This document shows positions 47,391-55,723 of a stretch of DNA of 62,230 nucleotides, one piece after another; positions within the stretch are counted from its first letter, which is position 1, and the number at the start of each line of letters is the position of its first letter. Below the pieces are notes generated by a model. The model was given only the letters and a program-made list of their open reading frames with translations, was not told the origin of the DNA and did not search any database. The stretch comes from Thermocrinis sp. (GTDB lineage: Bacteria; Aquificota; Aquificia; Aquificales; Aquificaceae): the NCBI GenBank assembly GCA_028276475.1, contig JAPYWH010000006.1:1-62230 (forward strand). The letters are read 5' to 3'. The translations under genes and the position numbers were made by a program.

Positions 47391-47424
47391 ATGTTTATGT
47401 TTATTAACTGCAGGAGGTAATACA

Positions 47425-48153
47425 ATGGATGGACACATATATGGATACAACCTGCCCATCTCCGAAAAGACCAAGATGGTCCCCTGGGAGGAAAAGGTCA
47501 GGATCGTGGAGGAGGTAAAATCGGACTTTAGGTTTAAGGAATACATCTTTGGCTGTCTGAACTGCGGTGTTTGCACTGCGTCTTGCCCCTCCAACAGGTT
47601 CTTTGACTATTCCCCCCGGGAGATCGTCCAGAGGTTCTTAGAGGAGGATGTGGAGGTCCTCTATGATATGATGCACGAGTACATCTGGGCGTGCTCCCAA
47701 TGCTTTACCTGCTGGATCAGATGCCCCTTTGTGAATAATCCCGGTGGGCTTGTGGCAATAATGAGAGAAGTAGCCGTCCGCAATGCCTTTGAGGCAACAA
47801 AGGATCTTCTAAAACCTTACGGAAGGGTTCTACTAAAAGTTATGACCACCGGAAACCAGCTATCCGCAGACATGCTACAGCCCGACTTCTTCCCCGACTG
47901 GGGTCCCAAGATGGCAGACAACATGGAAAACCTCAGGGCAAAGAGGCTTGCCATTCCCTTTGATGTGGGTAAATCTGTGAAGACCGCTTGGGAAGTATCC
48001 TTGGAAACCGCCATAGAAATGTACACCATCTGGAGAGAGACGGGCATATTTGAAATGTTAGAGAAGTTAGACCCAAACCTCTACAACGTCATAATGGACA
48101 TTGTGGAGGAGAACGAAGAGAGGTATCAGGAGCTCTATGAAGAGGAAGAGTGA
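47425..48153 (+). CDS. shdrC1: sHdrC1, iron-sulfur subunit of the sulfur-oxidising Hdr-like complex
   Basis: 242 residues from ATG 47425 with GCAGGAGG upstream. Two 4Fe-4S motifs: CLNCGVCTASCP and CSQCFTCWIRCP. It is the electron-wiring subunit beside sHdrB1. It is first of the order C1-B1-A-H-C2-B2, the type I sHdr arrangement. The C-terminal ~100 residues are helical and acidic at the end. Confidence 0.92.
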   Translation: MDGHIYGYNLPISEKTKMVPWEEKVRIVEEVKSDFRFKEYIFGCLNCGVCTASCPSNRFFDYSPREIVQRFLEEDVEVLYDMMHEYIWACSQCFTCWIRCPFVNNPGGLVAIMREVAVRNAFEATKDLLKPYGRVLLKVMTTGNQLSADMLQPDFFPDWGPKMADNMENLRAKRLAIPFDVGKSVKTAWEVSLETAIEMYTIWRETGIFEMLEKLDPNLYNVIMDIVEENEERYQELYEEEE

Positions 48154-48201
48154 GCTTACAAAAGGGTTTGAAGCCCGAAAAAAACTTAAGGAGGTGTTAT
48201 C

Positions 48202-49566
48202 ATGGCACATGCCAAGTTAGAGTCTAAATGGGGCTATGTTAGCCACGGGGGTATTCTCAGATACCCCGAAGAGCCACCCTTCCCAGTGAAGGAGTATGAC
48301 GCCCACTACGACCACATCTTTGAAATGATGGAGGAGCTTGAGGCTAAGGGCGAGATCCTCATACACAGGATCACCGAGGAGCATCAACCCATAGCGGTCT
48401 TCACTAGAACTGGAAGGATAAAGCTGATCCCCACCAACAAGCTTTGGCACCACAAATCCTGCGGACAGTGCGGAAACATACCCGGATATCCCGCTTCAGT
48501 GTTCTGGTTTATGAACAAGTTTGGACTTGATTATCTCAACGAGCCCCACCAAACTTCCTGCACTGCGTGGAACTATCACGGTTCCGGCACTTCCAACCCC
48601 GTAGCCTTGGCGGCAGTTTGGCTCAGGAACATGCACCAAGCTTGGAAGACTGGATACTATCCTCTTATTCACTGCGGAACATCCTTTGGTTCATACAAAG
48701 AAACCAGGGAACAGCTCATAATGAACAAAGAGCTCAGGGATGCGGTAAAGCCCATCCTCAAAAAGCTTGGAAGGCTAACAGAGGACGGAAGGATCGTTAT
48801 ACCCCAAGAGGTGGTTCATTACTCCGAGTGGGTCCATGCTATGAGATACAAGATTAAAGAGCTTTACGAAAAGGAAGGTAAGGCAAAGGGCATAGATGTC
48901 TCTAATGTTAGGGTTGCCATACACAACGCCTGCCATACCTACAAGATGATCGCCGACGATTACCCCTACGACCCAGAGGTCTATAACGGGCAAAGACCGG
49001 CCGCATCCACCGCAGTGGTAAAGGCACTGGGTGCCCAGGTGGTGGATTACTCCACATGGTATGACTGCTGTGGCTTTGGCTTTAGGCACATTCTAACCGA
49101 AAGGGAATTCACCAGGTCTATGGCGATCCAAAGGAAGCTTAAGGTGATCGCAGAGGAAGTAAAGGCAGACCTGATCGTTACCCACGACACGGGATGCACC
49201 ACCACTTTTGAAAAGAACCAGTGGATCGGAAAGGCACACGGCATGTACCATCCTGTGGCGGTTATGTCCGATGTGATGTTCGCTGCCCTTGCCTGTGGAG
49301 CCCATCCCTTCAAGGTGGTCCAGCTCTACTGGAACTGCTCCCACTACGAACCACTTCTTGAGAAGATGGGCATCACCAACTGGAGAGAGCTCAAGAAGGA
49401 ATGGGAAGACACCGTCAAATACATCTCCGAGCTTGAAAAGGCGGGCAAGTATGATGAGCTGATGGAATTCTTCAAGGAATACGACCTCTATGAACCCTAC
49501 AGCAGAACCTCTACAGGAAAGCCCAAGGCATCCGCCACTGCCAATATGCCACTGTTTAAGTCCTAA
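48202..49566 (+). CDS. shdrB1: sHdrB1 subunit
   Basis: 454 residues, longer than HdrB of methanogens because of an N-terminal extension. N-terminal cysteines are Cys87/Cys90 (KSCGQCG), Cys120 and Cys158. The C-terminal CCG-like motif has Cys244 (NACH), Cys289-Cys290 (YDCCGFG) and Cys332 (DTGCTTTF) but no final Cys at +3, so it is incomplete. It belongs to the complex oxidising lipoate-bound sulfur. Strong AAGGAGG precedes the ATG. Confidence 0.9.
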   Translation: MAHAKLESKWGYVSHGGILRYPEEPPFPVKEYDAHYDHIFEMMEELEAKGEILIHRITEEHQPIAVFTRTGRIKLIPTNKLWHHKSCGQCGNIPGYPASVFWFMNKFGLDYLNEPHQTSCTAWNYHGSGTSNPVALAAVWLRNMHQAWKTGYYPLIHCGTSFGSYKETREQLIMNKELRDAVKPILKKLGRLTEDGRIVIPQEVVHYSEWVHAMRYKIKELYEKEGKAKGIDVSNVRVAIHNACHTYKMIADDYPYDPEVYNGQRPAASTAVVKALGAQVVDYSTWYDCCGFGFRHILTEREFTRSMAIQRKLKVIAEEVKADLIVTHDTGCTTTFEKNQWIGKAHGMYHPVAVMSDVMFAALACGAHPFKVVQLYWNCSHYEPLLEKMGITNWRELKKEWEDTVKYISELEKAGKYDELMEFFKEYDLYEPYSRTSTGKPKASATANMPLFKS

Positions 49567-49574
49567 GCTTTTTT

Positions 49575-49589
49575 GGGGGCTTTGCCCCC
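49575..49589 (+). terminator. Intra-operon GC hairpin between shdrB1 and shdrA
   Basis: GGGGGC-TTT-GCCCCC forms a six-base-pair stem with a three-base loop, eight bases after the shdrB1 stop and just before the shdrA ribosome site (AGGAGG at 49608). A T-run lies before it and only TTTGAT after it. It may be a leaky terminator or an mRNA-stabilising hairpin. Confidence 0.45.
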
Positions 49590-49620
49590 TTTGATAAATA
49601 CTTTGTTAGGAGGTTTTGTT

Positions 49621-50679
49621 ATGGCAAAGGGTGTGCTGGTAATTGGTGGAGGACCTGCCGGTTTGGGAGCGGCAAGGATCCTTGGAAGACTTGGTATCCC
49701 AACTATCCTGGTGGAAAAGGAGGACAGGTTGGGTGGAAACCCTGTCCTGAACCACTATCACACTCTCATACCCAGAAAGCTAAAGCCAGAGCAGGTGATC
49801 GGTCCTTACATCAAGGAGGTGGAAAGCAACCCCAATGTGCAGGTCAAGCTAAAGACAGAGCTTTCTGCCTGTGAGGGAGAGCCCGGAAGCTACAAGGTCA
49901 CACTCTCTAACGGTGAAACCCACGAGGTGGGTGCCATAGTGGTTGCCACGGGCTTTGAACACTTTGACCCAAGGAGAAAGGGAGAATTAGGTTATGGGCT
50001 GTATCCCGACGTGATCACCAACTTAGAGCTTGAGCAGATGTTTTCCAAGGAAGGAAGGCTTTACAGACCTTCCAACGGACAACTGCCCAAGAGGGTAGCC
50101 TTTGTTTTCTGTGTGGGTTCTCGGGACAGACAGCTGGGTGTAACCAACGTGCACTGCTGTAGATATGGTTGTGCCCTGTCCGGTCTGCAGGCTATGGAAA
50201 TAAGACAGCACTATCCCGATGTGGATGTCTTCTGCTACTACATGGATGTTAGGACCTACGGAACTTGGGAGTATCCCTTCTACTGGGCACCCCAAGAGCA
50301 GTATGGCGTAAGGTACGTAAGGGGTAGGATAGCGGAGATAACCTACAGCCCCGCAGACGGTAGGCTAAGGGTAAAGCACGAAGACACCATCGTTCAAAGA
50401 CCTTCCGAGGTACCCATGGACCTGGTGGTCCTTGTGCTTGGTATGGAACCATCCGCGGGCACAAAGAAGGTAGCCAAAATACTGGGACTTGCCCAGGACC
50501 CAGACAGCAAGTTCTTGGTTCCCTCCGAAGAGTCTGGCTCTAACATCATCTCCAACAAACCCGGCATATTCATAGCGGGTGCCTGCAAGGGACCCATAGA
50601 CATAGAGTCCTCCCTCTCTGAAGGTGAAGCGGCCGGTGCAGAAGCTGCAGCCTTTGTGGGTGCAAAGGTGACGGTATGA
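49621..50679 (+). CDS. shdrA: sHdrA, FAD-containing subunit
   Basis: 352 residues from ATG 49621, seven bases after AGGAGG; a longer frame from 49573 would cross the hairpin. FAD motif LVIGGGPAGLGAARILG, a cysteine set (CVGSRD…VHCCRYGCALSG) that matches the 4Fe-4S site of HdrA, and a C-terminal GIFIAGACKGPIDIESSLSEG. It lacks the ferredoxin domains of methanogen HdrA, as expected for sHdrA. It overlaps the next gene by ATGA. Confidence 0.92.
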   Translation: MAKGVLVIGGGPAGLGAARILGRLGIPTILVEKEDRLGGNPVLNHYHTLIPRKLKPEQVIGPYIKEVESNPNVQVKLKTELSACEGEPGSYKVTLSNGETHEVGAIVVATGFEHFDPRRKGELGYGLYPDVITNLELEQMFSKEGRLYRPSNGQLPKRVAFVFCVGSRDRQLGVTNVHCCRYGCALSGLQAMEIRQHYPDVDVFCYYMDVRTYGTWEYPFYWAPQEQYGVRYVRGRIAEITYSPADGRLRVKHEDTIVQRPSEVPMDLVVLVLGMEPSAGTKKVAKILGLAQDPDSKFLVPSEESGSNIISNKPGIFIAGACKGPIDIESSLSEGEAAGAEAAAFVGAKVTV

Positions 50680-51413
50680 AGAAGCTCGCAGTCTTAGACG
50701 ACTTTTTGGTTAGGGACTATCTCATAAAGATCCTCGGAGAGGGCGAGGAGTTTGCCCAGGAGTTCTACAAGGACCTCCTCGCCAAGTCCCTCCTTTTCCA
50801 AAAGAGCCTGAGCAAGGAAAGGCTCGCCTCTTTGAGCAAGGAGGAACTGGACAGCATTTTGGAAAAGGTCTTCTCCGTAAGGAGAAAGAGACAAAGGCTC
50901 ATAGAAGAGACGGGCGTGGAAAATCTAAAAAGGGCTATAAGCGACCTGCTGTATGGAAAGGCTAACAGCTGGGAAGAAAGGGTAGAAAATTTTGTAAAGT
51001 CCATAAAGGGTGTGGATAGAAAGTCCGCAAGGGACTTGGCGTCTGAGCTTTTGCACTTTACGTTCCCAGAGGAGTATGTGCTGTGGACCAGCTGGATATG
51101 GGACCCCGAAAGCGAAAGCGGGGCGGTGGTCTTCCTCAAGGAGGAGCCCCCAAAGAGGCACATGTACGGAGAAACCTACGAGGAGTTTGAACAGATCTAC
51201 AAACAGGTCCAGGAAAAGCTCCTTGATTTTGGTATAAAGGTAAGGGGTTACCTTTTTGTGGATATATTCCTTGCCATGATATACGCCACCTATGTGGATT
51301 ACATGACACTATCCACCATGCACAGTGCCAAGGGCTTTTTCCCACCGGCGGGCGTCATGGCAAGGCGACTTTTGGGTGTTCAAAGACCCGAAGACATTGA
51401 ACTGGAGGTTTAG
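50676..51413 (+). CDS. shdrH: sHdr-cluster conserved protein ('hyp')
   Basis: 245 residues, mainly helical and charged; no cofactor motif is visible. A protein of this kind is conserved between shdrA and shdrC2 in sHdr clusters and is called Hyp or sHdrH; function is unknown. It is coupled to shdrA by ATGA and two bases from shdrC2. There are no cysteines, which argues against direct sulfur chemistry. Confidence 0.8.
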   Translation: MKKLAVLDDFLVRDYLIKILGEGEEFAQEFYKDLLAKSLLFQKSLSKERLASLSKEELDSILEKVFSVRRKRQRLIEETGVENLKRAISDLLYGKANSWEERVENFVKSIKGVDRKSARDLASELLHFTFPEEYVLWTSWIWDPESESGAVVFLKEEPPKRHMYGETYEEFEQIYKQVQEKLLDFGIKVRGYLFVDIFLAMIYATYVDYMTLSTMHSAKGFFPPAGVMARRLLGVQRPEDIELEV

Positions 51414-51415
51414 CC

Positions 51416-52174
51416 ATGGCAATACACGAAAGAAGCTTAGTAGAGCCAGAAAGAATTGTAAGGAAGGAAAGGCTCGTCATTGACGGGGTGGATGTGTCGG
51501 GAGACTGGAACCTGATCATCCTCCCTCGTGTGATCAACGATTATGACCTTGACTTTGCCAAGGAGATCATAAACTCCCCCGACGGAAAGACCATAAACCA
51601 ATGCTATCAGTGTTCATACTGCACCGCATCCTGTCCGGTGCACAACTATTGGGATGAGCGATACAATCCAAGGCACTTTATATACTTGGCAAGGTTAGGC
51701 ATGATTGACGAGCTTCAAAAACGGGCGGATGTAATGTGGAGGTGCGTGTCCTGTCATAAATGCACCCACAGATGTCCAAAGGGTGTGCTGGTAGAAGAGG
51801 TGCTAAAGGTGATCCTCAGAACTATGGCAAAGAAGGGTCTCATAGACGAGTATCCCTCCAAGAAGTTTGACAAATTCTTTACCGAATCGGTCCTTGAGTA
51901 CGGAAGGATAGAGGACGGAGAACTGCTCTTTGGCTGGATTGAAAAGCAGGGCTACAATGTGGTAAAGGACCCCATCCTGAAAAAGCCCATACCCTTCCTC
52001 GGAGAAACACCCGAGTGGCTAAAGCAGTTGGTGATGAAGCCCATAAAATCCATGAACGTTAGCTTTTTAGTCCTTAACGCCAAGCACATGCTATTCCATC
52101 CAAGGACCAAGAACTGGAACAAGTTCAAACAAGTTCTAAGGAAGGTTATGCAAGAAGAGGGAGCACTAACTTAA
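51416..52174 (+). CDS. shdrC2: sHdrC2, iron-sulfur subunit
   Basis: 252 residues. Two 4Fe-4S motifs: CYQCSYCTASCPVHN and CVSCHKCTHRCPKG. C-terminal region with NWNKFKQVLRKVM. Paralogue of sHdrC1 that pairs with sHdrB2. ATG preceded by GGAGG, two bases after the shdrH stop. Confidence 0.92.
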   Translation: MAIHERSLVEPERIVRKERLVIDGVDVSGDWNLIILPRVINDYDLDFAKEIINSPDGKTINQCYQCSYCTASCPVHNYWDERYNPRHFIYLARLGMIDELQKRADVMWRCVSCHKCTHRCPKGVLVEEVLKVILRTMAKKGLIDEYPSKKFDKFFTESVLEYGRIEDGELLFGWIEKQGYNVVKDPILKKPIPFLGETPEWLKQLVMKPIKSMNVSFLVLNAKHMLFHPRTKNWNKFKQVLRKVMQEEGALT

Positions 52175-52186
52175 GGAGGTATAAAG

Positions 52187-53146
52187 ATGGGTGTTATTGG
52201 TAAAAGGGTTGCCTATTATCCAGGTTGTTCCTTAGAGGGTGCCGCAAGGTCTTATGATGTATCCACCAAAATAGTGGCAAGGGAGCTGGGTTTGGAGTTG
52301 GATTATCTGGAAGATTACAACTGCTGTGGTGCTATGGAATCCAAGAATGTGACCTTTATGGGCACCATGCTTTTGAACGCTCGGAACATGTCTTTGGCAA
52401 GAAAGCAAGGGCACGATGTGATCGTGGCACCCTGCAACGGATGTTCCTTTTCCCTGCAGAGGGCAGAATACTTCTTGCAAACGGACGGCAAAGTCTTTGA
52501 AAGGGTCAATAGCCTCCTCAGAGAGGGTGGTGTGGACCCCTTGGACAAAATTCCCGAGACCTATCACATCTTAGAGTGGTTCTATCACGAGGCAGGACCC
52601 CAGAAGGTAAAGGAAAAGACCAAAAGACCCCTCAGAGGGCTAAAGGTTGCCAACTATTACGGATGTCTTTACACAAGACCTCACTTCTATGCTAAGACCT
52701 ATGCCCACGCGGGCGGTCAAGAGGAAGAGGTTAGACCAAGGAGAAGGGAAACTGCGGATGACGACGAGCATCCCTACTACATGAACGCCCTTTTGGAGGC
52801 TGCGGGTGCCACCAGTGTAGAGTTTGAGCCCATGCATACCCAGTGCTGTGGGGGGCCACACTCTCTGTCTGACGAGCAGGTGTCTGAGAAGTTTGTGATG
52901 ATGATCCTGCAGACCGCCAAGAGGAACGGTGCGGACATTATAGCCACCGAGTGCCCACTCTGCCACGCATCCTTGGAAATGTATAGACACAGGCTCATGA
53001 TGAAGGGTGTGCCCGATGTGGATGTTCCTGCTGCGTACTTCACTCAACTATTGGGCTTGGCTTTCGGATACAGTGCCAACGATGTAAAGCTGAAGGATAA
53101 CCTATCGGACCCTCTGCCCGTGCTAAAGAGGCTCGGATTGGCTTGA
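52187..53146 (+). CDS. shdrB2: sHdrB2 subunit with two CCG domains
   Basis: 319 residues. Both CCG motifs look complete: Cys in YYPGCSLEG, YNCCGAME, APCNGCSFS; and YYGCLYT, TQCCGGPH, ATECPLCHAS. These bind the noncubane 4Fe-4S clusters known from HdrB, where disulfide or persulfide chemistry occurs. An Arg/Glu/Asp-rich insertion (around residues 182-200) separates the halves. AAGGAGG precedes the ATG. Confidence 0.93.
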   Translation: MGVIGKRVAYYPGCSLEGAARSYDVSTKIVARELGLELDYLEDYNCCGAMESKNVTFMGTMLLNARNMSLARKQGHDVIVAPCNGCSFSLQRAEYFLQTDGKVFERVNSLLREGGVDPLDKIPETYHILEWFYHEAGPQKVKEKTKRPLRGLKVANYYGCLYTRPHFYAKTYAHAGGQEEEVRPRRRETADDDEHPYYMNALLEAAGATSVEFEPMHTQCCGGPHSLSDEQVSEKFVMMILQTAKRNGADIIATECPLCHASLEMYRHRLMMKGVPDVDVPAAYFTQLLGLAFGYSANDVKLKDNLSDPLPVLKRLGLA

Positions 53147-53155
53147 GGCAAGAAA

Positions 53156-53611
53156 ATGGAAAAGGAGTGGGAATATAACGGCTGTATAATCCCACTGGAT
53201 CTATACTACGAGATAGAAACCCAAACTTGGGTAAGGTTAAACGAAGACGGAACTGTGACGATGGGTCTTACGGATGTGGGGCAGGTCCGGGCTGGGCGCC
53301 TGCTCCATGCCCGTATAAAGGACGTGGGCAAATACATAAAGAAGGGAAAGCCGGTGGCATCCCTTGAGAGCGGTAAGTGGGCGGGACCCATAAACGCCCT
53401 GGTGGAAGGAGAAGTGGTGGAACGCAACGAAAGGGTCTTAGAACAGCCAGACATAATAAACTACGACCCCTACGGAGAGGGCTGGATCGTGAGGATGAAG
53501 CCGGCGGACCTGGAAAGGGACCTAAAGGACCTACTCTATGGACCCCAAGCCATAGAAAAGATGAGGGAATACATAGATGAATGGGATATAATCTGCATGA
53601 GGTGTACGTGA
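53156..53611 (+). CDS. lbpA1: LbpA1, lipoate-binding protein with C-terminal CxxC
   Basis: 151 residues, GcvH-like. The lipoylated lysine is Lys74 in SLESGKWAGP; this ESGKW context marks sHdr-associated LbpA rather than glycine-cleavage H protein. Cys10 lies near the N-terminus. The last residues contain Cys147 and Cys150 as a CxxC, which the second copy lacks. LbpA carries sulfur on its dihydrolipoyl arm to sHdr. The stop overlaps the thioredoxin-like gene as TGATG. Confidence 0.93.
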   Translation: MEKEWEYNGCIIPLDLYYEIETQTWVRLNEDGTVTMGLTDVGQVRAGRLLHARIKDVGKYIKKGKPVASLESGKWAGPINALVEGEVVERNERVLEQPDIINYDPYGEGWIVRMKPADLERDLKDLLYGPQAIEKMREYIDEWDIICMRCT

Positions 53612-53868
53612 TGGCTGGAAAGGACAAACATGTGATCCTTCTGGTCTCTCAGTGGTGTGCCACGTGCCCCGACGCGGACGCCCTCTGGCAAAAGCTCCAA
53701 AAGGAGTATGGTTTTAAGTATGAGGTTTTGGATGTGGCACAGCCGGAGGGCAGAATGTGGGCAAAGAAGCTCGTAATTAGGGCAGTTCCCTCCACCATCA
53801 TAGACGGAAAGCTTACCTTTGTGGGCGTTCCATCAGAAGAGGAGGCAAGGAGGGCTATAGAATCGTGA
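53611..53868 (+). CDS. Small thioredoxin-fold CxxC protein
   Basis: 85 residues from ATG 53611 (overlap TGATG with lbpA1); a longer frame from 53581 lies inside lbpA1. Active site Cys16-Ala-Thr-Cys19 in SQWCATCPD, and a cis-Pro region VPSTIIDG. Size resembles the short archaeal-type thioredoxin/glutaredoxin. Between lbpA1 and a DsrE gene it is a candidate reductant or sulfur-transfer partner in the pathway. Confidence 0.82.
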   Translation: MAGKDKHVILLVSQWCATCPDADALWQKLQKEYGFKYEVLDVAQPEGRMWAKKLVIRAVPSTIIDGKLTFVGVPSEEEARRAIES

Positions 53869-54254
53869 AGGTGGTGATCCTTATGACCAGCGGACCAAAA
53901 ACTCCTTGGAGATGTGCGTCGCCCTTTTACATTGCTGCGTTGATGGCTTCCAACGACGCAGAAGTGGAAATGTTTTTCAACATGGACGGCACAAGGCTCT
54001 TGAAAAAGGGTGTGGCGGAGAGGATCTTGCCTGCGGAGCCCAACTGTCTGAGCGTCAACGGAAAGAAGTTGAAAACTGTTTATGACTTTATGAAGGATGC
54101 CAAGCAGGCGGGAGTTAAGTTTTACTCCTGCAAGCAGGCTATAGACTCTCTGGGCTACAGACCGGAGGAACTGATCCCGGAGCTGGACGGTGTTGTGCCA
54201 GCCAGCGAGTTTGCCCTCAGGGCGATGGAGGCAGATAAGGTAATTACCTTTTAA
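53865..54254 (+). CDS. DsrE-like protein, second copy
   Basis: 129 residues from GTG 53865 overlapping the previous stop. DsrE pattern VVILMTSGPKTPWRCASPFYIAALMA and TVYDFMKDAKQAGVKFYSCKQAID; cysteines at 17, 61 and 89, with Cys89 equivalent to Cys95 of the first copy. Cys17 and Cys61 are specific to this copy. Flanked by the two lbpA genes' block, it may load sulfur onto LbpA. Confidence 0.8.
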   Translation: MKVVILMTSGPKTPWRCASPFYIAALMASNDAEVEMFFNMDGTRLLKKGVAERILPAEPNCLSVNGKKLKTVYDFMKDAKQAGVKFYSCKQAIDSLGYRPEELIPELDGVVPASEFALRAMEADKVITF

Positions 54255-54278
54255 AAATCTTATAAAGGAGGGTATAGC

Positions 54279-54725
54279 ATGGCAGTAGTAAATGGGTGCA
54301 ACATACCCGAGGACCTGCTTTACGATGTGGACCCAGAAGCCAGTACCTTCACATGGGCAAAGGACAATGGGGATGGCACCTTTACCATAGGGCTAACGTC
54401 CATAGCGGCCGCAATGGCTGGAAGGCTCGTTGCCTACACTCCCAAAAAGCCTGGCAGAACAGTGGAAAGGCGTAAAAGCGTAGCCACCATAGAAAGTGGT
54501 AAGTGGGTGGGACCTGTGCCTACGCCTCTAACCGGTGAAATAGTGGAGGTAAACGAAGCCCTCAAGACCAACCCTGCCTTGGCAAACGACGACCCCTACG
54601 GTCAAGGTTGGATCGCCAAGATAAAGCCCACCAACCCCGAGGAGGTCAATATGCTTCTTAAGGGACAGGCGGCTGTGGATGCCCTAACAAAGGTAGCCAA
54701 CGAAAAGGGTATAAAGTGCGGATAA
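54279..54725 (+). CDS. lbpA2: LbpA2, lipoate-binding protein, second copy
   Basis: 148 residues, similar to LbpA1 along its length. Lipoyl lysine Lys75 in TIESGKWVGP, Cys7 near the N-terminus, and one C-terminal Cys147 in place of the CxxC. Two LbpA copies suggest distinct partners or redox steps. AAAGGAGGG precedes the ATG; its end overlaps the radical-SAM gene by ten bases. Confidence 0.93.
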   Translation: MAVVNGCNIPEDLLYDVDPEASTFTWAKDNGDGTFTIGLTSIAAAMAGRLVAYTPKKPGRTVERRKSVATIESGKWVGPVPTPLTGEIVEVNEALKTNPALANDDPYGQGWIAKIKPTNPEEVNMLLKGQAAVDALTKVANEKGIKCG

Positions 54726-55723
54726 TTCAAAACTTTGAGGGGGTCTCTTCCCCCCTCAACCAAGAACTTTTGGAGGAGCTCTTTGAAGGTTTCAAGGTAA
54801 GGGAAGAGAACTTCGGAAAAAAAGTCTATTTTTATAGCCCCGGCTTTAAACACTACCAAGTGGAGGATTTTTACATTTCCGCCGGTCCAAAGTTTGTGGA
54901 TGTTTCCATAACTGGCAAAAACTGCGAGCTTATGTGCGACCACTGTGCGTCCAAAATCCTCTGGCACATGATCCCCGCCACCACACCGGAGGAGCTAAAA
55001 AGGGTTGGAGAGGAGCTAAAAGCCAAAGGTGTGGAAGGCATACTCATATCGGGAGGTTCCAACAAGGACGGAGTGGTAGAGCTCTATCCTTTCTTTGAAG
55101 CCATTGAGTATCTTAAGAGGGAACTGGGACTGATCACCACCTGCCATGTGGGACTTGTAGATAGGGATCTGGCAAAGGGCTTAAAAGAAGCGGGTGTGGA
55201 TGCGGTGCTTATGGATGTGATAGGAGATGATAGGACCATAGCGGAGGTTTATAAACTGCCCCATAAGTCTGTGAAAGATTACGAAGAATCTTTGGCACTG
55301 CTTAAAGAATACAACCACAGGATAGTGCCCCACGTGATCATCGGACTCCATTATGGAAAGGTCTTGGGTGAATACAGGGCGATAGACATGATCTCCAAGT
55401 TTGACCCGGATGGACTGGTTTTAGTGGTAGTCATGCCCTACTACGGAAAGACAAGGTTCCAACTTTTGCCCCCACCCACCCCGGAGGAGTGCGCAAAGGT
55501 CTTTTTGCACGCAAGGTTGAGCCTTCCAAGGGCGCCCGTGGTGATAGGCTGTGCAAGACCCGCAGGTCCTGAGAGGATCAAGATGGACCTCTATGCCCTC
55601 TATGCGGGCGTCAATGGTATAACTTTCCCCGCAGAAGGTATTTTAACCCACGCTAAAGAGATAGGTTTGGAACCTGTTGTATCTCCAAACTGTTGCTCAA
55701 CGGTAGTCCTGCCCATAAATTAA
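54716..55723 (+). CDS. Radical SAM lipoyl-synthase-like protein (LipS1/LipS2 type)
   Basis: 335 residues. Radical-SAM cysteines are Cys70, Cys74 and Cys77 (NCELMCDHC); further motifs ILISGGSNKDG, TCHVGLVDRDL and HVIIGLHYGK. The C-terminal VSPNCCSTVV may bind a second cluster. LipS1 and LipS2 are radical-SAM lipoyl synthases described for sHdr-containing organisms that insert sulfur into octanoylated LbpA. I cannot separate LipS1 from LipS2. GTG start 54716 overlaps lbpA2. Only one such gene and no ligase lie here. Confidence 0.72.
   Translation: MRIIQNFEGVSSPLNQELLEELFEGFKVREENFGKKVYFYSPGFKHYQVEDFYISAGPKFVDVSITGKNCELMCDHCASKILWHMIPATTPEELKRVGEELKAKGVEGILISGGSNKDGVVELYPFFEAIEYLKRELGLITTCHVGLVDRDLAKGLKEAGVDAVLMDVIGDDRTIAEVYKLPHKSVKDYEESLALLKEYNHRIVPHVIIGLHYGKVLGEYRAIDMISKFDPDGLVLVVVMPYYGKTRFQLLPPPTPEECAKVFLHARLSLPRAPVVIGCARPAGPERIKMDLYALYAGVNGITFPAEGILTHAKEIGLEPVVSPNCCSTVVLPIN

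Follow-up and report, generated by a model that had tools for sequence, protein, structure and literature searches.

A lipoate-binding protein with a CMRC tail is encoded together with a small thioredoxin-fold protein in Aquificaceae and other lineages

Results

The window, the whole stretch of 62,230 nucleotides that was analysed, comes from an Aquificaceae genome whose nearest named records are Thermocrinis MAGs. Directly upstream of lbpA1 lies an sHdr core (Table 1), and in the window as well as in its relatives this core has the syntenic order C1-B1-A-H-C2-B2 by which the type I sHdr cluster is defined (PMC11582611). The operon is rich in persulfide carriers of the TusA and DsrE types. LbpA1 ends in WDIICMRCT, so that its CxxC stands one residue before the end, and the best start of trx is an ATG that shares one base with the lbpA1 stop codon (TGATG). 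The DsrE-like gene starts with GTG and overlaps the trx stop by four bases. The coordinates and C-termini thus confirm the original prediction that LbpA1 has a tail with Cys147 and Cys150, that LbpA2 has one C-terminal Cys, and that a CATC protein is encoded between the two by overlapping genes. The tail had also been described as unique to LbpA1, and this is correct for the genome as a whole, since LbpA2 and a third LbpA (G000:C67:10396; 63% identical to LbpA1, C-terminus EGVECKG) each end in a single Cys. In all 4 genes, lbpA1, trx, the DsrE-like gene and lbpA2, the level of amino-acid change is low and synonymous sites are near saturation.

Table 1. Coordinates of features in the window and of example loci in other genomes
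Feature	Position	Strand	Description
Type I sHdr core (C1, B1, A, hypothetical, C2, B2)	47419..53146	+	ORFs; order matches relatives by blastp
lbpA1	53156..53611	+	CMRC-tailed lipoate-binding protein, GcvH fold, 151 aa; Pfam GCV_H 9e-40
Lys74 of ESGKW in LbpA1	53375..53377	+	Expected lipoyl attachment site; invariant in 40 aligned LbpA
C147-M-R-C150 tail motif of LbpA1	53594..53605	+	C147 TGC 53594-53596; C150 TGT 53603-53605
GAGGTG	53599..53604	+	Likely ribosome-binding site of trx; inside tail codons, 6 bases upstream of ATG
trx	53611..53868	+	85-aa thioredoxin-fold protein, WCATCP; Pfam Thioredoxin_3 1.7e-13
Trx active site Cys16-Ala-Thr-Cys19	53656..53667	+	C16 and C19 invariant in Trx alignment
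DsrE-like sulfur transferase	53865..54254	+	Pfam DsrE 2.8e-15
lbpA2	54279..54725	+	Single-Cys-tailed lipoate-binding protein; GCV_H 5.8e-40; C-terminus KGIKCG
LipS1-like radical SAM lipoyl synthase	54716..55723	+	NCBIfam LipS1 222 bits, cut-off 230
Hemerythrin/LbpA example loci	L184:11540-13789; L239:8080-8574; L189:2539-3003; L235:7530-7967		
Tandem LbpA loci, Bacillota	L243:8526-9464; L244; L245		

The lipoyl role of the LbpA family is established (PMC6067878), and the present proteins carry both the lipoyl-attachment Lys and the N- and C-terminal Cys residues that are absent from GcvH. C10 is nearly invariant and C147 invariant in an alignment of 40 sequences, while C10, C147, M148, R149, and C150 are all invariant among 11 LbpA1 sequences of Aquificaceae. 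In the tree, LbpA separates from bona fide GcvH (support for the GcvH outgroup branch, 99). LbpA1 falls below the gcvH equivalog TIGR00527 (84.1 bits; cut-off 115.85) and exceeds the broader NCBIfam GcvH subfamily model NF002270, so that automatic pipelines would name it GcvH or a glycine cleavage protein; PMC10052474 lists gcvH1-4 of Aquifex aeolicus among the glycine cleavage proteins. The AlphaFold2 model of LbpA1 (mean pLDDT 94.3) has the H-protein fold, with a predicted C-terminal helix at residues 130-142 followed by a coil carrying CMRC; its best PDB matches are all H-proteins, and GcvH-L (5a35) appears at rank 22. Trx has the Thioredoxin_3 fold with a conserved WC-x-x-C and a conserved cis-Pro motif (VPS/T or IPS), and both active-site Cys residues are kept in 10/10 of the free-standing sequences aligned. 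Its nearest solved chains are the protein disulfide oxidoreductase 1j08 and the archaeal thioredoxin 1fo5, and also 1nho; it stays below the cut-off of the MJ0307 family (TIGR00411; 51.8 bits against 92.75).

Profile searches detected Trx in 56/136 Aquificota genomes, comprising 56/64 Aquificaceae and 0/72 others, and LbpA1 ending in CMRC was found in the same 56 Aquificaceae genomes; the 8 Aquificaceae genomes without Trx also had no LbpA1. Among the first 23 Aquificaceae relatives inspected, all 23 proteins have the C-terminus C-M-R-C-x and the Trx gene comes next, indicating that chance does not account for the arrangement in the window. Both tests that the original prediction had named for its own refutation, conservation of the tail in orthologues and its co-occurrence with the Trx gene, were therefore passed, and the motif is found in other phyla as well. 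The spacing between lbpA1 and trx in Aquificaceae is 0-10 nt. At loci from named records, the pair lies inside the sHdr operon at 17 and outside it at 16, and in either setting Trx stands beside LbpA1 (33/33). Where the pair is elsewhere, the DsrE-like gene and LbpA2 stay behind HdrB2 (L036, L038, L050). LbpA1 and Trx are thus one unit placed before DsrE and LbpA2, with DsrE going with LbpA2, and the notion of the 4 genes as a single functional block has to be given up. Like LbpA2, a dispersed third LbpA of Aquificaceae (LbpA3) has one tail Cys, and it has no Trx. When the tail columns are left out of the tree, LbpA3 nests within LbpA1, pointing to a duplication with loss of the second Cys and of Trx. 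In several Aquificaceae, LbpA3 adjoins a gene resembling class II aldolases (L033:6649-7625; L034:6191-7240; L037:6334-7366). One divergent Aquificaceae copy (L166) has the tail CKSC and no Trx directly downstream.

We scanned a genome collection for LbpA1-like proteins outside Aquificota, with group names taken as given by the database records; proteobacterial sampling was confined to Acidithiobacillus ferrooxidans plasmids. In one class of Bacillota, Trx occurs in 12/151 genomes, the same 12 that have an LbpA with an IQCMRC tail. This and the other genome counts should be read with caution, as many genomes are MAGs with short contigs and highly divergent partners could escape the Trx profile. 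At several of the Bacillota loci read at length, HdrB2 of a type I sHdr operon is immediately followed by this LbpA and then Trx. A phylum unnamed in the records, which is perhaps SZUA-79 (a guess on our part), has 2 single-Cys LbpA proteins in the sHdr cluster and, elsewhere, a third LbpA with an IQCMRC tail and Trx downstream. Trx was found in 26/30 genomes of this phylum and the tailed LbpA together with Trx in 25/30; the 4 genomes without Trx also had no third LbpA. The one Trx orthologue without an adjacent LbpA is that of G508 (L316, G508:C55:15832). An ORF that resembles ribonucleotide reductase, as judged by eye, lies near it. On A. ferrooxidans plasmids the gene order is Trx, hemerythrin, and an LbpA ending in QCMRCSE. 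Viral contigs yielded no LbpA in searches with LbpA1 or with a broader alignment of LbpA. Together, these results demonstrate that a CMRC-tailed LbpA and a small CxxC thioredoxin are reproducibly encoded together in at least 4 separate lineages, in one case as a fusion.

In the unnamed phylum, hemerythrin-domain genes lie no more than 2.5 kb from the CMRC-tailed LbpA in 41/41 locus entries, compared with 0/52 entries for single-Cys LbpA, and they also occur near CMRC-tailed LbpA in 2 Bacillota lineages and on the A. ferrooxidans plasmid. This neighborhood suggests an O2, NO, or iron context, as would be expected if the tail were a regulatory redox switch (a reversible disulfide, or metal or stress sensing) that Trx keeps reduced and that has no role in turnover; the position of the pair away from sHdr genes in several Aquificaceae points the same way. 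Against a switch stand the presence of the pair inside the sHdr operon in 2 phyla and the lack of a sensor domain in LbpA, and we regard it as quite improbable. The cluster on A. ferrooxidans plasmid L184 (NZ_CP040512.1) contains LbpA, Trx, 2 hemerythrins, and DUF2249, along with an Hdr-related protein resembling sHdrB1, a hydroxylamine reductase, and an NnrS gene.

To quantify the linkage we compared 255 distinct LbpA proteins, of which 252 had enough downstream sequence. Trx was encoded directly downstream of 88 proteins with a C-x-x-C tail and was missing there from 38, while none of the single-Cys LbpA proteins had it (0 with, 126 without). Among the tails scored as unlinked, L093, L184, and L321 are in fact linked or cut by a contig end, and the remaining ones belong to Thermoplasmata (17), to a second kind of Bacillota sHdr cluster (19), and to Aquificaceae (L166). 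Thermoplasmata with C-x-R-C tails have no good Trx orthologue in their genomes. The second kind of Bacillota cluster, which has a single-Cys and a C-x-R-C LbpA in tandem and no such Trx (Table 1), looks like the type II sHdr of PMC11582611, with a fused C2-B2 and, as judged by eye, EtfAB. The relation is thus one-sided, from Trx to the tail and not from the tail to Trx, and the presence of the tail without Trx in Thermoplasmata and in the Etf-type Bacillota clusters indicates that it is not only a docking site for Trx. The middle residue of the tail is Met in 87/88 Trx-linked proteins and a mix of M, I, L, and V in unlinked ones. Fisher's test on the tail and Trx counts (1e-37) ignores phylogeny and overstates the case because independent changes are few: on the tree built without tail columns, Trx linkage changes 4 times and the tail 6 times, and the phylogeny-corrected statistics are weak, with 2 independent contrasts on well-supported branches that never run in the opposite direction and are not significant. 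A single origin of all Trx-linked LbpA proteins was rejected by the AU test, a rejection that the nesting of LbpA3 within LbpA1 may drive.

Since the tail codons of lbpA1 overlap the likely ribosome-binding site of trx, the conservation of the tail could simply be that of this site, with operon inertia accounting for the linkage. The Arg codon is AGG in 51/52 Aquificaceae, inside GAGGTG, and hence a constraint at the DNA level exists in this family. Elsewhere, however, the Arg codons vary (CGG, CGT, and CGC in Trx-linked Bacillota; AGA and AGG in the unnamed phylum; all 6 in Thermoplasmata), and C-x-R-C is kept even though Trx either starts at a distance of 14-327 nt or is missing, indicating that the motif is retained as protein. 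We therefore rejected this explanation outside Aquificaceae, and since the same pair turns up again in other lineages and in different contexts, we give it hardly any credence as the sole cause of tail conservation.

The second, divergent copy of the pair in the complete genome G011 is a single ORF of 255 aa (L035:6418-7182; G011:C1:1060441), with an LbpA ending in CMKC, a short linker, and a Trx domain, and both domains are detected by Pfam. The fused Trx keeps the first Cys and has lost the second (active site WCSAS), a hint that the mechanism may proceed through a mixed disulfide or a persulfide and not by plain reduction with a dithiol. The retained Cys alone would be enough for persulfide transfer, and the abundance of persulfide carriers in the operon likewise favors a view of Trx as a sulfane transferase or desulfurase whose first Cys swaps persulfide with the CMRC tail or the lipoyl arm, so that the pair would move sulfur and not electrons. 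However, there is just one such fusion, and the paralogue concerned is divergent, while the free-standing proteins in the alignment retain both active-site Cys residues; we consider a role confined to sulfur transfer unlikely, if less so than a regulatory switch.

Discussion

We propose that LbpA1 and Trx are dedicated partners in a thiol relay of two proteins that is linked to sHdr-type sulfur oxidation, a reading that we favor as reasonably probable. The thiol and electron chemistry that we infer for it would run as follows. The active site of Trx would exchange a disulfide or persulfide with the CMRC pair of LbpA1, and this pair, which we assume to lie near enough to the lipoyl dithiol of Lys74, would exchange in turn with that dithiol. 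Trx could in this way draw electrons (or sulfane) from LbpA1, or reset it, independently of the sHdr complex and dihydrolipoamide dehydrogenase (Lpd). In the model published for LbpA (PMC6067878), turnover proceeds via Lpd and NAD+, and Lpd matches were present in every genome looked at, with and without Trx. Trx would therefore act beside Lpd and give LbpA1 an exit or reset that LbpA2 does not have, while LbpA2, with one tail Cys, would keep a sulfur-presenting role. Trx as a replacement of Lpd found no support, given that Lpd is matched regardless of Trx.

The idea that Trx acts on LbpA1, and that the 2 LbpA proteins consequently have different redox roles, was part of the original prediction; it is strengthened by the natural fusion and by the pair staying together outside the sHdr operon, and weakened in so far as the tail has a wider use than docking Trx. 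Several observations count against the relay. The presence of Lpd wherever we looked means that a substitute electron exit is not needed, a fused Trx with WCSAS is a poor fit to plain dithiol reduction, and both the C-x-R-C tails without Trx (Thermoplasmata, Etf-type Bacillota) and the G508 Trx without an adjacent LbpA break the pairing. More tentatively, the CMRC-tailed LbpA and Trx may make up a portable redox unit through which lipoate bound to protein is connected with a thioredoxin of its own. Such a unit would give sHdr sulfur oxidation a second exit for electrons or sulfur and, in combination with hemerythrin, would operate independently outside sHdr operons; we lean slightly against this broader version.

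The need for 2 LbpA proteins has been left unexplained, and no conserved Cys difference between LbpA1 and LbpA2 was reported (Cao et al. 2018, PMC6067878). The latter statement may be true for the proteins compared there; it fails for the lineages described here, in which a conserved Cys difference between LbpA carriers is now linked, in several phyla, with one particular partner gene. This offers a testable answer to why sulfur oxidizers keep 2 LbpA carriers. It also suggests that lipoate in sulfur oxidation talks to thioredoxin besides sHdr and Lpd, and that part of the proteins annotated as GcvH in these organisms are redox carriers. A search of the literature available without subscription found no paper on an LbpA-associated thioredoxin.

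Parallels to the pair exist in several known systems. In the mycobacterial DlaT-AhpD relay, electrons move from a lipoyl dithiol to a protein with a CxxC motif; that motif belongs to the separate AhpD, whereas here it is on the tail of the lipoyl carrier, with a Trx in addition. DsrC is a carrier of sulfur oxidation with 2 conserved Cys residues on a flexible C-terminal arm, but its fold is unrelated to that of LbpA1, it has no lipoate, and its Cys spacing is different. GcvH-L of Streptococcus (5a35), which functions outside glycine cleavage, is likewise a stand-alone GcvH-like lipoyl carrier and differs in its operon. The nearest solved relatives of Trx are small thioredoxins or protein disulfide oxidoreductases of the MJ0307 family, for which we know of no lipoyl partner. 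The DsbA-like protein near soxT1A in Hyphomicrobium is periplasmic and different from the LbpA-linked Trx. The LbpA proteins that Cao et al. 2018 (PMC6067878) describe for the sHdr pathway share with LbpA1 the GcvH fold, the lipoyl Lys, the N- and C-terminal Cys, and the sHdr operon context; the second tail Cys and the dedicated Trx set LbpA1 apart from them.
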